This document shows, in pieces, positions 22,233-28,611 of a stretch of 64,000 nucleotides of DNA. Under the pieces are notes generated by a model. The model made no database searches and had not been told where the DNA came from. It saw only the letters and a program-made list of their open reading frames with translations. Origin of the DNA: Prevotella sp. (GTDB taxonomy: Bacteria; Bacteroidota; Bacteroidia; Bacteroidales; Bacteroidaceae); assembly GCA_017538105.1 (NCBI GenBank), contig JAFYJN010000041.1, positions 124,001 through 188,000 of the forward strand, in the 5' to 3' direction. A program made the position numbers and the translations under genes. The first letter of the stretch is position 1; each line of letters starts with the position of its first letter.

Positions 22233-22307
22233 AAAGATATCTATAAACAAATCAACTCTTCAACTCATCAACTTATAAACTCAAATAACACCAAAAACTC
22301 AAACAAT

Positions 22308-25300
22308 ATGAAAAAACTATTACTATTAGCCCTTTTGCTCTGCGGTATATCCCAAGCATGGGCTGCCGAATGGACTGACAGCAATGGAATAAGCTGGACC
22401 TTTACTGTTAGTGGCGCAAATGCAACTAATATCGTGCCATATGATAAGTCCAGTATTTCAGGCGAGGTGTTGATTCCTAGCAAAGTGAATAATGGTATAA
22501 GGGATTTGACCGTGACGAGCATCGGCAGATCTGCGTTCTCCGACTGCTCCGGTCTGACGAGCGTTACCATCCCCGAAGGTGTGAGCATCGGCATGTCTGC
22601 GTTCTCAGGCTGCACGGGCCTGACGAGCGTGATCATCCCCGAAGGTGTGAGCATCGGTTCATCTGCGTTTTCCGGCTGCACCGGCCTGACGAGCGTGACT
22701 TTCCCCTCGACTTTGACGAACATTAGTGATTTTGCGTTTCAAGGTTGTACTGGCCTGACGAGCGTGACTATCCCCTCAAGCGTGACATCCATTGGCAATG
22801 CTGCGTTCCAAAACTGCCATATGACCAAAGTAATTGTGCCTGATCTTTCAGCATGGTGCAATATCAATTTTAGTGGTGATTCTGCAAATCCTCTCATATA
22901 TGCAGATCATTTATATAGTGATGAGAATACGGAAATAACCGAATTGATGATTCCCAATGGAGTCATAACCATCAGACACCATGCGTTCCAGGGATGCTCT
23001 AGCCTGACTAGCATAACCATCCCTGAGAGTGTGACGAGCATCGAAAACGTAGCCTTTAATGGTTGCTCCGGGATGACGAGTATTACCATCCCTCAGAGCG
23101 TAACGAGTATCGGTAGCTATGTTTTCGATAATTGCCCTAGCTTGACAACGGTGAAAGTTTCCGTTACTGACCTAGCCGCTTTCTGCAACAATACAATAGT
23201 CAATCTAATTCGTAATTATTCTACTATCAGTTCTAAGACTGTGATATTTATTGATGAAGAGGGAAACGAAATCACTGAATGTGCCATCCCGGAGGGTGTG
23301 ACGAGCATAGGCTCTTTTGCGTTCTATAAATGCCGCAGCCTGACGAGCTTGATCATCCCCTCGAGTGTGACGAGCATCGGCAATAATGCGTTCTATGACT
23401 GCTCCAGCTTGGCGAGCTTGACCATTCCCGAGGGTGTGACGAGCATCGGCAATCAGGCTTTTTCTAGCTGTACCAGTCTGACAAGTGTTACCATTCCCTC
23501 TAGTATGACAAATATCGGAGAAAAAGTGTTTGAATCTATCAACTTGACGTTTGTGACCATTAACGCGACGAACGTCCCTTCATTGAATAATACCAATTCT
23601 TTCCCGAGTCCAATGGTAGTTCTTGTTCCAGAATCTGCATTAAACGATTATCTTGCTGCGGATGTTTGGAAAGATATGACAGACCGAATTACGTCTATAA
23701 GTCCATATAATGATTATTCCGCAACTGTTTCTGCTCAAGAAACTTCTTCTGGCATTCATGCAGCTATAGGTGAGGAGAATCTCAACAAAGTAATTAGTCT
23801 GAAAATATCAGGAACAATCAATAGTTACGACATCATGGTTATCCGTAACAAAATGCTTTGTCTCCGACATCTTGACCTTTCTGATGCAACCATTGTTGCC
23901 AGTGATTATGAATACGTTTCAGGTTGTAAGACGGAGGACAATAAGATTGGGAATAAAATGTTTAATGGATTGTCGAGATTTAAAACAATTCAATTGCCAT
24001 TAAGCGTAACGAGCATCGGCGATTATGCGTTCTCTGGTTGCTCTGGCCTGACGAGCGTGACCATCCCCTCGAGCGTAACGAGCATCGGCGATTATGCGTT
24101 CACTCGTTGCTCTGGCCTGACGAGTGTGACCATCCCCGAGGGCGTGACGAGCATAGGCACTAGTGCGTTCTATAACTGCTCCGGCCTGACGAGCGTTACC
24201 ATCCTCGAGGGTGTGACGAGCATCGGCGGTTATGCGTTTTATGGTTGCTCCGGCCTGACGAGCGTTACCATCCTCGAGGGTGTGACGAGCATCGGCGGTT
24301 ATGCGTTTTCTGGTTGCTCTGGCCTGACGAGCGTGACCATCCCTGAAGGAGTGACGAGCATTGGCGAATATGCGTTCTCTCGTTGCTCTGGCCTGACAAA
24401 CATTGTCCTCCCTTCCACCTTGACAGGGCCTATACGTTCTTATTGTTTTCAAGGTTGCAGTGGACTCACAGAGATTCGCATTCCACCGATGGTAACCAGC
24501 GTAGGAAGTTCTGCATTTAGTGGTTGTTCAGCCCTGAAAGACTACTACGTTTATGTGGTGGATCCCTTCAGTATCGACATGGGCAGTTTCGCCAACTATA
24601 CCACCGCTACGTTGCATGTGCCTACACAAAGCTATTACAACTACTATTGGAACACGCAATGGAGCCAGTTTGCCAACCTTGTGGAGTTCGATGAGCCTTA
24701 CTCCCGTTTCTATCTCCAGAACGACTACACGCTGGCTGACGACAAACGCTTCGACGGCGAGCCAGATGCCGACTTCCACGAGAACTCGGGCTTTATCGTT
24801 GATGGTAACGACAGCCAGGATTTGGGCGATGTGCACGTCATCGGCAACGGCACCGATGCCGCGAGCATCATCGACGACGGCAACATCACGGCGCAGAACG
24901 TCTTTTTCGACATCACCATAGCCGCCAACAAGTGGTACTTCTTCGCCTTCCCCTTCCGCGTGAAGGTGAGCGACATCGTGGCACCGGGATACTATGCTCT
25001 GCGCTGGTACGACGGTGAGGCACGCGCCGCCAACGGACAAGGAGGCTGGAAAGACTTCACGGGCGAATACCTGGAGCCGGGCATCGGATACATCATCCAA
25101 TGCAACGCGGCGGGCACGCTCAACATCCCGTCCACCAACCCGACATTCGACGGTCAGGATAAGGACAACACACTCTCCATGCACCACTCCGACAACGGAC
25201 AGCACGCATCGTGGAACTTCATGGGTAACCCGTGGCTGAGCTACTTCGACATCAACGACTGCGGCTTCGACGCACCGTTCACTATCTGGAACGGCAGCGG

Positions 25301-26087
25301 TTACGATGCATACCGTCCGGGCGACGACGACTACCTACTACATCCCTTCCAGGCGTTCTTCGTGCAAAAGCCCGAGGGAACGGGCGGCATGCACTTCGGA
25401 CATGGCGACCGCTACACCTATCACCAGGGACAGAACCACCAGGCGGCGGCGCATGCCAAACGCATGGCCAAGGGCATCAACCCGCAACGACTGATGCTGA
25501 ACCTGACCATCAGCGATGGCACGAAAAGCGACCGCACGCGCGTGGTGTTTAACGCCGACAAGCAGAACGCCTACGAGGTGGGTACCGACGCGGCGAAATT
25601 CATGACAGCCGACATGCCGCAGCTCTATACCCTTGACGGCACGAACACTCGCTACGCCATCAACGAACGGCCGCAGGGTGAGGTGAAGCTGGGCTTCAAC
25701 GCACCCACGGCGGGCACCTACACCATTGCCATGCAGCGCATGGACCAGCCGATGTTGCTGCGCGACATGCTGACAGGACGCACGGTGAGCCTGACAGACG
25801 GCGACTATTCTTTCGACAGCGAGGCGGGCACGTTCGACAACCGCTTTATGCTGGTGATGGACAATGGCACGACGGGCATCGCACAGCTCTTTGCCGAGAC
25901 GGGCGTAAGCGTGATAGGTGCTGACGGCGGCCTCTACATCAGCGGTGCCGAGAAGGGCGAGGTGAACGTGTACAACACCGCCGGTTCACTGGTGGCGCAG
26001 CAGGCGGGCAACGGTCATACGGCACTGCCGCGCGGCGCGTATATCGTGAAGGTGAACGGCGTGAGCGTGAAAGTAGCGGTGAAATAG
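22308..26087 (+). CDS. BspA-like surface protein with LRR_5 repeats
   Basis: The 1259-residue secreted protein begins with a signal peptide (MKKLLLLALLLCGISQAWA). Leucine-rich repeats of about 23 residues with the frame TSIGxxAFxxCSGLTSVTIP fill about residues 65-430 and 560-740, in two blocks separated by a non-repeat segment. This is the arrangement of BspA-type adhesins. The C-terminal 500 residues form beta-rich modules (NKWYFFAFPFRVKVSD; HASWNFMGNPWLSYFD) and end in a sorting-type tail (NVYNTAGSLVAQ ... LPRGAYIVKVNGVSVKVAVK) typical of type IX secretion cargo. The repeat part is A/T-rich and the C-terminal part G/C-rich, suggesting module joining near 24690. The locus continues with dockerin and cohesin-like genes. 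Binding to host or matrix proteins is a family-level inference. Confidence 0.92.
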   Translation: MKKLLLLALLLCGISQAWAAEWTDSNGISWTFTVSGANATNIVPYDKSSISGEVLIPSKVNNGIRDLTVTSIGRSAFSDCSGLTSVTIPEGVSIGMSAFSGCTGLTSVIIPEGVSIGSSAFSGCTGLTSVTFPSTLTNISDFAFQGCTGLTSVTIPSSVTSIGNAAFQNCHMTKVIVPDLSAWCNINFSGDSANPLIYADHLYSDENTEITELMIPNGVITIRHHAFQGCSSLTSITIPESVTSIENVAFNGCSGMTSITIPQSVTSIGSYVFDNCPSLTTVKVSVTDLAAFCNNTIVNLIRNYSTISSKTVIFIDEEGNEITECAIPEGVTSIGSFAFYKCRSLTSLIIPSSVTSIGNNAFYDCSSLASLTIPEGVTSIGNQAFSSCTSLTSVTIPSSMTNIGEKVFESINLTFVTINATNVPSLNNTNSFPSPMVVLVPESALNDYLAADVWKDMTDRITSISPYNDYSATVSAQETSSGIHAAIGEENLNKVISLKISGTINSYDIMVIRNKMLCLRHLDLSDATIVASDYEYVSGCKTEDNKIGNKMFNGLSRFKTIQLPLSVTSIGDYAFSGCSGLTSVTIPSSVTSIGDYAFTRCSGLTSVTIPEGVTSIGTSAFYNCSGLTSVTILEGVTSIGGYAFYGCSGLTSVTILEGVTSIGGYAFSGCSGLTSVTIPEGVTSIGEYAFSRCSGLTNIVLPSTLTGPIRSYCFQGCSGLTEIRIPPMVTSVGSSAFSGCSALKDYYVYVVDPFSIDMGSFANYTTATLHVPTQSYYNYYWNTQWSQFANLVEFDEPYSRFYLQNDYTLADDKRFDGEPDADFHENSGFIVDGNDSQDLGDVHVIGNGTDAASIIDDGNITAQNVFFDITIAANKWYFFAFPFRVKVSDIVAPGYYALRWYDGEARAANGQGGWKDFTGEYLEPGIGYIIQCNAAGTLNIPSTNPTFDGQDKDNTLSMHHSDNGQHASWNFMGNPWLSYFDINDCGFDAPFTIWNGSGYDAYRPGDDDYLLHPFQAFFVQKPEGTGGMHFGHGDRYTYHQGQNHQAAAHAKRMAKGINPQRLMLNLTISDGTKSDRTRVVFNADKQNAYEVGTDAAKFMTADMPQLYTLDGTNTRYAINERPQGEVKLGFNAPTAGTYTIAMQRMDQPMLLRDMLTGRTVSLTDGDYSFDSEAGTFDNRFMLVMDNGTTGIAQLFAETGVSVIGADGGLYISGAEKGEVNVYNTAGSLVAQQAGNGHTALPRGAYIVKVNGVSVKVAVK
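24000..24400 (+). repeat. Near-identical 69-base LRR units inside the BspA-like gene
   Basis: Six successive 69-base units encode TSIGxYAFxxCSGLTSVTI. Two neighbouring units share the change CCC to CTC (ILEGV instead of IPEGV) and almost all third-base choices, pointing to very recent unit duplication or conversion. Confidence 0.8.
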
Positions 26088-26184: not shown

Positions 26185-26266
26185 CTACACTCCCACACTC
26201 CTACACTCCCATACTCCTACACTCCTACACTCCTACACTCCCACACTCCTAAACTCCTACACTCCC
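26185..26266. repeat. Octamer tandem repeat before the dockerin gene
   Basis: About ten units of actcctac / actcccac (8 bases each) end a few bases before the ATG at 26274, so they would form the leader of that gene. Copy-number slippage could affect its expression. Confidence 0.8.
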
Positions 26267-26273
26267 AAAAAGT

Positions 26274-27125
26274 ATGAAAATATCAAAATATATAGGACTG
26301 CTCCTGATGCTGGTGCTCGCGGTGCGGGCATCGGCGCAGGGCGGTTTCAATCCCGACAATCCCCCGGAGCCACTGGCACAGTACAAGGTGTCGCTGGCAT
26401 GTACGCCGCCGGAGGCGGCCTACACCTCTGGAGCGGGGAAATATACGACTGGCACGACAGTGAACATACGCACGTCGGCGCGTGGCAGCAACTACACCTT
26501 TGAACACTGGCTGAAAGATGGTGCGGTGTACACCACCGACATGAACTTCACCTACACGGTGGAGGCACGCAACGTGACGTTTACGGCGGTATGGCGTTTC
26601 AACCCCAACAGCCCGCCGGAGCCGATGGCGAAGAATGAATACCGCCTCTACTTGGAACAGAACATGAATGGTGCGGGGTCGTTCAACCGCACCAGCGGAG
26701 CGAAGGCGGAAGCCGGCAGCAGCGTCTATCTGAGGGCCTACAACAACCAGGGCTTCGTGTTTGAAGGCTGGTACGAAGGAGAGACGTTGGTCAACAGCAA
26801 CGCCACGTTCTATTACACCATGCCGGCACACCACGTGACACTCACCGCCCACTACAGATACGACCCCAACAGCCCCGCCGACCCGCAATCGTCGCAGACA
26901 GACATCGACAACCGACTCATCGGCGACGTGAACGGCGACGGAGTAATCACCAGTGCCGATGCGGTGTGCATCATCAACTACGTGGTGCGCAAGGAGAACG
27001 CGGTGTTCATCGAGGCGAACGCAGATGTGAACGGCGACGGGGTAATCACCAGTGCTGATGCTGTGTGCATCATCAACATAGTGGTGAGAAAGGATGATGA
27101 ATCTGGACCTGTCAATCCCGACTGA
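26274..27125 (+). CDS. Secreted dockerin-bearing protein with two InlB-B-like repeats
   Basis: The 283-residue product has a signal peptide (MKISKYIGLLLMLVLAVRASA). Two related beta modules of about 75 residues follow (YTFEHWLKDGAVYTTDMNFT and FVFEGWYEGETLVNSNATFY), like Listeria-Bacteroides InlB_B repeats. A type-I-dockerin-like tail begins at about residue 217, with two copies of DVNGDGVITSADAVCIIN at about 218 and 251. Each has the DxNxDGxI calcium loop and a following F-helix. Dockerins dock onto cohesins, and the next gene encodes a cohesin-like domain. The two calcium-loop copies are nearly identical at DNA level. A role in building a surface complex with the neighbouring BspA-like protein is inferred. 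Confidence 0.88.
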   Translation: MKISKYIGLLLMLVLAVRASAQGGFNPDNPPEPLAQYKVSLACTPPEAAYTSGAGKYTTGTTVNIRTSARGSNYTFEHWLKDGAVYTTDMNFTYTVEARNVTFTAVWRFNPNSPPEPMAKNEYRLYLEQNMNGAGSFNRTSGAKAEAGSSVYLRAYNNQGFVFEGWYEGETLVNSNATFYYTMPAHHVTLTAHYRYDPNSPADPQSSQTDIDNRLIGDVNGDGVITSADAVCIINYVVRKENAVFIEANADVNGDGVITSADAVCIINIVVRKDDESGPVNPD

Positions 27126-27151
27126 CAAAACAAAAAACAACCATAGGAAAA

Positions 27152-28402
27152 ATGAAAAAGACATTTGCTTTGATTGCCCTGCTAGCCGTTTGTGGCTGGA
27201 CTAGGGCAGACGACAAAATTTCGGTAGAGGATGTGACCGTGCCTCAAGGTGGTGCGACGGCGCTTAATGTAATCTACCATTTCGACGTAGAAGGTGCATA
27301 TACTTCATATCAGTTCGACATCGACCTGCCAGAGGGGGTGGAACTGGAGATGAACGGCAACAACGTGGTATATACGCTTGGCGATTGCCACACCAGCACA
27401 CACATGCTCTCAACCAATTACGTAGCAGCTGAGGATGTGTATGCATTTACGAGCTTATCGATGAATAGCGACCCGTTGTCAGGACAAGATGGTGTGCTCC
27501 TGACGCTGAGGGTGACGGCAGACGCGGCGTTGGAGGTGGGAACGCCGCTGACGGGCACCATCCAGGCGGTGTCGGTGAACACGCTCCAGGGAACGAGCGT
27601 GCCATTGCCCAACCAGACGTTCACCATCACCATCGGTGAGCCGGTGGACCCGAGAACCATTCTCGACGAACTGTCGGAAACGCCGCCGACAGCTTCCGAC
27701 GGACCTGTGGACATACTCGTAAAAAGAACCATCAAGGCAGGTCAGTGGAGTACCATCTGTCTGCCGTTCGATATGACTGAACAACAGGTGTATGATGCTT
27801 TCGGCGACGATGTGGAACTGATGGATTTCGTCAGCTATGATACGGTGGAGGATGATGCTACGGAAGAGATCTTCGAAATCATCGTCAACTTCGAGTCCGT
27901 CGATTTGAGCGGTGGCTTCGAGGCCAACCATCCCTACGTGATCAAGGTGTCGGCAAACAAGGGTGACATCACGGAGTTTGAGGTGAACAGCACCATCGAC
28001 CCCGACGAGGAGGATGCCTGCGTGATATACGACAACGGATTGACAGGAAAGAAACGTATCATCTACGGATGGCTCCAAGGTACCTACCATAACAGAACGG
28101 TGGTGCCGGAGAACGGCTTGTTCATCAGCGAAAACAAGTTCTGGTACTCCACGGGTGCCACGAAGATGAAAGGATACCGCGCCTACTTCGAACTGACAGA
28201 TGTGCTCTCCTCAGTTGAAAGCGCGGGAACCAACATCTCGATGACCTTCGACGGGACGACAGTAATAGTAAGCCTCACCCCCAGCCCCTCTCCAGAGGGC
28301 GAGGGGAGTGGATACTACATGCTCGACGGACGTAGAATCGATGGAATGCCCACACAGAAAGGCGTGTATATAGTGAATGGTAAAAAAATAGTGATTAGAT
28401 AA
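27152..28402 (+). CDS. Secreted protein with cohesin-like domain and sorting-type C-terminus
   Basis: The 416-residue product has a signal peptide (MKKTFALIALLAVCGWTRA). Residues about 22-148 read like a cohesin: VTVPQGGATALNVIYHFD, then AYTSYQFDIDLPEGVELEM, and the later strand pair DGVLLTLRVTADAALEVGTP. A central segment (TIKAGQWSTICLPFDMTEQQ) is common in Prevotella surface proteins. The C-terminus (YYMLDGRRIDGMPTQKGVYI, then VNGKKIVIR) is a short sorting-type motif. The linker LTPSPSPEGEGSG is encoded by an inserted palindromic repeat (28274-28307). The gene starts 26 bases after the dockerin gene and is three bases from the small-peptide gene, so all belong to one operon. Single cohesin, no scaffoldin array. 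Confidence 0.82.
   Translation: MKKTFALIALLAVCGWTRADDKISVEDVTVPQGGATALNVIYHFDVEGAYTSYQFDIDLPEGVELEMNGNNVVYTLGDCHTSTHMLSTNYVAAEDVYAFTSLSMNSDPLSGQDGVLLTLRVTADAALEVGTPLTGTIQAVSVNTLQGTSVPLPNQTFTITIGEPVDPRTILDELSETPPTASDGPVDILVKRTIKAGQWSTICLPFDMTEQQVYDAFGDDVELMDFVSYDTVEDDATEEIFEIIVNFESVDLSGGFEANHPYVIKVSANKGDITEFEVNSTIDPDEEDACVIYDNGLTGKKRIIYGWLQGTYHNRTVVPENGLFISENKFWYSTGATKMKGYRAYFELTDVLSSVESAGTNISMTFDGTTVIVSLTPSPSPEGEGSGYYMLDGRRIDGMPTQKGVYIVNGKKIVIR
28274..28307 (-). repeat. C-rich palindromic repeat inserted in coding sequence
   Basis: CTCACCCCCAGCCCCTCTCC followed by AGAGGGCGAGGGGAG; CCCCTC and GAGGGG can pair. It is read in frame as TPSPSPEGEGS between the body and sorting tail of the cohesin-like protein. 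Confidence 0.75.
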
Positions 28403-28404
28403 TA

Positions 28405-28611
28405 ATGAAAAAAGCATATATACAACCACAGGTGGAAGTTTATACTTGGACCAGCGATATGACGATGGCTGGCAGTGGCGTGACGGGCGACAACGGCATC
28501 GGCTGGGGTGGCGTGGATGAAGAAGGCAACAAGGATCCTGACGCCAACAGTTTCGCTACTTGGGAAACAGAAGATGAAGTCGTCCCCGTTTCCTCCTCTA
28601 TCGACTGGTAA
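28405..28611 (+). CDS. 68-residue peptide of unknown function, Prevotella type
   Basis: MKKAYIQPQVEVYTW is followed by a Gly/Asp-rich segment (GSGVTGDNGIGWGGVDEEGN) and an acidic end. There is no classical signal peptide, although the K-K-x-Y-I-x-P-x-x-E head recurs in small proteins of Bacteroides and Prevotella that I have seen next to surface genes. It starts two bases after the stop of the cohesin-like gene and is clearly in the same transcript. It could be a precursor peptide or a small structural component; no modification enzyme is nearby. Function unknown. Confidence 0.75.
   Translation: MKKAYIQPQVEVYTWTSDMTMAGSGVTGDNGIGWGGVDEEGNKDPDANSFATWETEDEVVPVSSSIDW

Follow-up and report, generated by a model that had tools for sequence, protein, structure and literature searches.

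A conserved Prevotella surface cassette in which a dockerin protein and a tailed cohesin protein are encoded side by side

A cellulosome is understood here as a multi-cohesin scaffold with dockerin-bearing carbohydrate-active enzymes; our comparators for its type I pairs are the Acetivibrio cellulolyticus ScaB cohesin (5nrm) and Clostridium thermocellum (1ohz). For Ruminococcus albus it has been suggested that a single cohesin keeps dockerin proteins at the surface (PMC6118326). The cohesin fold also occurs outside cellulosomes, in Clostridium perfringens (2jh2, 2vo8, 2w1n) and Archaeoglobus fulgidus (2xdh). Dockerins are known in rumen Bacteroidetes, where their role is called unclear and cohesins absent or unrecognisable (PMC7260996, PMC7480376); PMC7260996 offers two options, namely that no cohesin is needed or that the cohesins are too diverged to be recognised, and PMC6071333 tables cohesins for two Bacteroidetes bins. 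This report concerns a dockerin gene and a cohesin gene that are neighbours in a stretch of 64,000 nucleotides from the genome of a gut Prevotella sp. (GCA_017538105.1, contig JAFYJN010000041.1, positions 124,001 to 188,000), hereafter the window. The pair, which encodes the proteins P0002 and P0001 and is followed by a peptide gene, belongs to a surface cassette conserved in Prevotella, of which it is one copy; we found no description of this cassette in the literature searched.

Unlike a cellulosome, the cassette has one cohesin, in P0001, and that protein bears a sorting-type tail; the cargo is mostly adhesin-like, the anchor gene lies beside the partner gene, and the genome encodes type IX secretion. 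It resembles the Ruminococcus albus proposal in that one cohesin would hold dockerin proteins on the surface; however, one cohesin serves many enzymes there, whereas here the cohesin gene adjoins that of its partner and encodes a tailed protein. The cohesins of 2vo8 and 2w1n belong, by title, to glycoside hydrolases, whereas the protein that carries the cohesin of the cassette has a C-terminal domain for which PDB gave no match. The rumen Bacteroidetes dockerins come from the same kind of organisms and share much non-carbohydrate cargo. PMC7260996 reports no recognisable cohesin in such metagenome-assembled genomes, whereas the cassette has one in the next gene, which Pfam misses in 64 of 67 alignment members (match at E <= 0.001 in the other three); this supports the diverged-cohesin option. 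The cassette may thus explain why rumen Prevotella have dockerins but few recognised cohesins, and the puzzle becomes testable with named pairs.

Within the window, the three open reading frames (ORFs), separated by 26 and 2 bases, lie where the preliminary description had placed a dockerin gene, a cohesin-like gene and a 68-residue peptide (Table 1). P0002 has a signal-peptide-like start, two divergent InlB-type B-repeats, a C-terminal type I dockerin and no sorting-type tail. The dockerin, proposed earlier from two calcium-loop repeats, is borne out by the profile search: PF00404 scores above its gathering cut-off, and a whole-genome search places the domain at the identical spot (26922..27080). 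Its two repeats of about 22 residues have Asp or Asn at positions 1, 3 and 5 and Asp at 12 (positions as in PMC6780208), position 9 of the loops being Thr. The loops are identical to each other across DVNGDGVITSADAVCIIN; in cellulosomal dockerins such symmetry is taken to accompany two binding modes (PMC6780208).

P0001 matches no Pfam or NCBIfam family above cut-off. The cohesin-like domain claimed for it nevertheless has the cohesin beta-sandwich fold in the predicted structure, and PDB profile matches fall within its range (best E 0.0028). A cohesin profile search, suggested earlier, gave a divided answer: PF00963 does not match P0001, but a paralogue on contig C5 of the same genome, 41% identical, exceeds the cut-off. 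The preliminary description saw the cohesin and missed the sorting-type C-terminal domain (CTD244) behind it. That domain has a confident structure model for which no PDB match was found, and is possibly a new fold.

Loci for comparison were obtained by scanning contigs with two DNA patterns inside the C-terminal domain; 191 relatives were confirmed, and the 80 that ranked highest in tblastn with whole P0001 were retained, giving 81 loci with the window. This ranking favours cohesin-bearing loci, and the selection steps are blind to dockerin and peptide. By record title the organisms are Prevotella, Prevotellaceae, Bacteroidaceae or Bacteroidales, and ruminant stomachs are the source of many. 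The gene order, which the preliminary description proposed to look for in other Prevotella, is conserved: a dockerin is upstream or fused in 68/81 loci (59 in the gene directly upstream, 10 fused into the same ORF, one locus with both), and the peptide profile matches directly downstream in 76/81. As to the other loci on the dockerin side, L105 and L150 have a degraded dockerin-like end by eye, L079 and L140 start at a contig edge, and nine have none. The five loci lacking a peptide match comprise two with the peptide by eye (L075, L115), one with an internal stop (L134), one that is cut (L096) and one with none (L108). The earlier statement that there is only a single cohesin does not extend to these relatives, since 39 of the 59 upstream dockerin proteins have a second cohesin, coh1, immediately N-terminal to the dockerin, and 45 have a cohesin somewhere; nor does it hold across the source genome, which has further cohesins. 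In nine of the ten fusions the order is cohesin-dockerin-cohesin-C-terminal domain, the first cohesin being absent from L116.

A larger set joined 100 stretches, fetched from the top peptide-profile matches, to the earlier loci (206 stretches, 185 focal proteins, 146 after removal of near-duplicates). Its peptide count, 142/146, is circular because those 100 stretches were picked by the peptide. Leaving out 9 loci cut upstream, cohesin and dockerin are present or absent jointly: 105 loci with a cohesin have a dockerin and 17 do not, while without a cohesin the numbers are 2 and 13 (Fisher p 1.8e-8).

The two domains also diverge jointly. The distance-matrix correlation between dockerin and cohesin is 0.648 (101 loci) against 0.169 for the cohesin and its own C-terminal domain, 0.128 for dockerin and C-terminal domain, and 0.174 for C-terminal domain and peptide. 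It reaches 0.767 versus 0.201 for cohesin and C-terminal domain in the 34 loci that, like the window, have no cohesin beside the dockerin, and is 0.483 versus 0.065 after collapsing to 68 loci. Coupling to the cohesin is stronger for the dockerin recognition positions 10, 11, 17, 18 and 22 than for the other variable dockerin positions, 3.37 versus 2.61 (9 versus 32 columns, p 3.5e-4).

For seven dockerins and eight cohesins of the source genome, pairing was scored by comparing their distance profiles to 103 reference loci; one domain of each kind is partial, and the C76 dockerin is under the filter. The window dockerin scores 0.57 with the window cohesin and at most 0.10 with every other cohesin of the genome, while the C5 dockerin pairs well with the two cohesins of C5 (0.61 and 0.64) and with those of C51 (0.62) and C88 (0.58). 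Judging from these profiles, cassette specificities would differ, the window pair standing apart and the other cassettes of the genome forming a second group.

Dockerin and sorting tail largely exclude each other: a protein has one or the other, rarely both. The tail is absent in 96/97 upstream dockerin proteins. Among the leucine-rich repeat (LRR) proteins of the loci (n=45, not de-duplicated) it is found in 0/29 with a C-terminal dockerin and in 8/16 others (p 6e-5); of the eight dockerin-less ones without a tail match, five, including that of the window, have a tail-like end by eye, while two others (L166) resemble degraded dockerins. The tail of P0001 is taken to be of the kind used by type IX secretion cargo, and the machinery is encoded in the source genome (SprA 2656.5 bits, PorU 871.5 bits, both above cut-off).

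We consider it probable that this is a docking cassette in which P0001 gives the tail-less P0002 a sorting tail in trans. P0002, which is adhesin-like and has B-repeats, would enter by its signal-peptide-like start, and its dockerin would plug into the N-terminal cohesin of P0001; the docking would depend on calcium, as both dockerin loops are intact. The docked P0001 would then lend its sorting and anchoring tail by the type IX route and P0002 would reach the cell surface, the pair either crossing the outer membrane together or meeting outside. We infer from the computed features that the two proteins bind physically and specifically and that the type IX route is used. If sorting in trans is true, it would amount to a modular means of protein display on a Gram-negative surface, and the varied dockerin-cohesin pairs could serve as tools. 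A wider extension seems to us rather doubtful: that tail-less adhesins, with some proteases and nucleases, gain a sorting tail in trans by docking onto a cohesin carrier and are exported, or retained outside, by type IX secretion, that matched coh1 domains give fibres, and that the C-terminal domain, possibly a new fold, and the peptide are dedicated parts.

Several results speak against sorting in trans. The C30 subtilase of the source genome combines a dockerin with its own tail, and there are fused proteins that also hold both. The count of tails in C-terminal-domain proteins, 145/146, is circular because the profile was built from those proteins; a motif finds the tail in 113. TIGR04183 does not match P0001 and matches 5/67 alignment members weakly (E <= 0.1, best 0.0014). 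There are the 17 loci with a cohesin and no dockerin upstream. At the residue level, the dockerin-side signal is weak in a second test, where 4.4% of random column sets equal it; the two dockerin columns with the strongest individual signal, 13 and 6, are not among the published positions; the hand-mapped cohesin binding face correlates with the dockerin recognition positions at r 0.287, below the mean of 0.349 for other variable cohesin columns; and the cohesin side gave no consistent residue signal across the column tests. As to pairing, the dockerins of a three-cohesin protein on C30 (0.43) and of the C67 endonuclease (0.37) score best with the window cohesin, and the score is imprecise on known neighbours (area under the curve, AUC, 0.766; median rank 14/103; first in 4/103).

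The failure of the cohesin-side test leaves room for dockerin and cohesin being structural modules without functional binding, inherited as one block so that the correlations reflect linkage. Their genes are indeed contiguous, yet the other adjacent pairs, whether within one protein (cohesin and C-terminal domain) or in neighbouring genes (C-terminal domain and peptide), barely correlate; besides, cohesin and dockerin are lost jointly and the dockerin recognition positions stand out in one of the two tests. We regard this explanation as improbable. Somewhat less so, while still unlikely, is that P0001 just holds on the surface a dockerin protein exported by another route, as proposed for Ruminococcus albus (PMC6118326). 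The docking evidence fits this equally well, but the crossing of the outer membrane by tail-less proteins and the mutual exclusion of dockerin and tail would be left unexplained.

It is tempting to propose a self-assembling surface chain, with coh1 sharing the predicted specificity of the anchor cohesin and subunits joining head to tail into a fibre that grows from the anchor; we hold this as a tentative idea only, although more plausible than the previous two. It draws on the position of coh1, whose linker to the dockerin is mostly 2-5 residues, on the identity of coh1 and the anchor cohesin (coh2), 0.335 within a locus versus 0.227 across loci (permutation p 2e-4, 45 loci), and on joint divergence (dockerin-coh1 0.571, coh1-coh2 0.610; N 67). 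Local duplication, or a coh1 that stabilises the neighbouring dockerin, would however yield similar numbers, and the 12 cohesins farther from the dockerin mostly mismatch the anchor cohesin (best ranks 6, 11 and 14 of 105, the other nine 31 to 88). P0002 of the window, which has no coh1, would on this idea either cap a chain or form a single-unit one.

The preliminary description suggested a minimal two-part surface complex, perhaps adhesive, and not cellulosomal. The suggestion is borne out in part. A matched two-part, non-cellulosomal complex with adhesin-like cargo has good support from our computations, namely the predicted cohesin fold, gene order, joint presence and absence, joint divergence, in-genome pairing and the lack of catalytic glycoside-hydrolase domains in the partners scanned. 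The description "two-part" is perhaps too restrictive, as the window cohesin also scores fairly with dockerins from elsewhere in the genome and may serve some unpaired ones. A Pfam scan of 44 of the 59 upstream partners found LRR in 17, B-repeats in 7, Big_2 alone in 6, GLUG in 3, Cthe_2159 in 2, and RCC1 repeats, Hydin-type Ig domains and peptidase C10 in one each; six had only dockerin, cohesin or weak matches, and in 3/44 (L098, L124, L130) the dockerin is called by the local profile alone. No catalytic glycoside-hydrolase Pfam domain was found in these 44 partners or in nine further proteins scanned.

Dockerin proteins elsewhere in the source genome include a subtilase and an endonuclease I. 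The latter (C67, L051), with its dockerin at the C-terminus, may be a surface-docked nuclease. Adjoining the subtilase on C30 (L049) is a 1005-aa protein in which the local profile finds three cohesins; it also has Hydin-type Ig domains, ends in a dockerin and could be a small branched scaffold. The end of C88 and the start of C51 (L050, L048) look like halves of one gene, with neighbours shared with L065; its putative order would be LRR-cohesin-(dockerin)-cohesin-C-terminal domain.

Table 1. Features of the locus in window coordinates
Feature	Position	Strand	Support
BspA-type LRR surface protein, 1259 aa, upstream neighbour with sorting-type C-terminal end	22308..26087	+	PF13306 E 2.8e-151
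Octamer tandem repeat CTACACTC, 10.1 copies	26185..26265	+	Tandem Repeats Finder
P0002, dockerin-bearing adhesin-like protein, 283 aa	26274..27125	+	
Two B-repeats of P0002, residues 48-117 and 133-204	26415..26885	+	PF18998 E 3.5e-17, two stretches; local profile
Type I dockerin of P0002, residues 217-269	26922..27080	+	PF00404 51.1 bits, cut-off 22.9
Dockerin calcium loops DVNGDGVITSAD, twice	26925-26960 and 27024-27059	+	
P0001, 416 aa, with signal-peptide-like start, cohesin at the N-terminus and a sorting-type tail on its C-terminal domain	27152..28402	+	
Cohesin domain of P0001, residues 21-162, unrecognised by Pfam	27212..27637	+	
C-terminal domain CTD244 of P0001, residues 166-416, ends in KGVYIVNGKKIVIR	27647..28399	+	
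Companion peptide, 68 residues, motif GGVDEEGNKDPDA, no obvious signal peptide	28405..28611	+	

The preliminary description rightly reported the peptide and missed its near-constant membership of the unit. We believe that it belongs to the cassette; that it helps the C-terminal domain is our guess. Its two close paralogues in the genome stand behind two close paralogues of P0001. Across 398 same-genus genomes its profile matched 247 at E <= 0.001, the weak matches including a wider peptide family; across the order it is rare (3/295 genomes at E <= 1e-5, one being the source genome). It is present in another family of the order (G508, G690, family f111), perhaps by transfer. Distant relatives occur in the source genome (C97:130575, C82:22737, C53, C45); that of C82 lies 73 bp behind a sorting-tail protein, so the family may extend beyond the cassette. 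The C-terminal domain and the peptide occur together without any cohesin (L068, L069, L127 and others), and the cohesin may thus be an add-on to that core.

Upstream of P0002 lies the BspA-like LRR protein, as described earlier; its C-terminal matches to DUF6383 (19.2 bits) and TIGR04183 (16.3 bits) are both under cut-off. Octamer tandem repeats lie directly 5' of surface-protein genes here and at other places. One, at 22251-22283, is about 25 bp 5' of the LRR gene, and that at 26185-26265 stops 8 bp short of the ATG of the dockerin gene; a 25-base version of its pattern is found within the genome only there (2 overlapping matches). Slipped-strand control by such repeats is possible.
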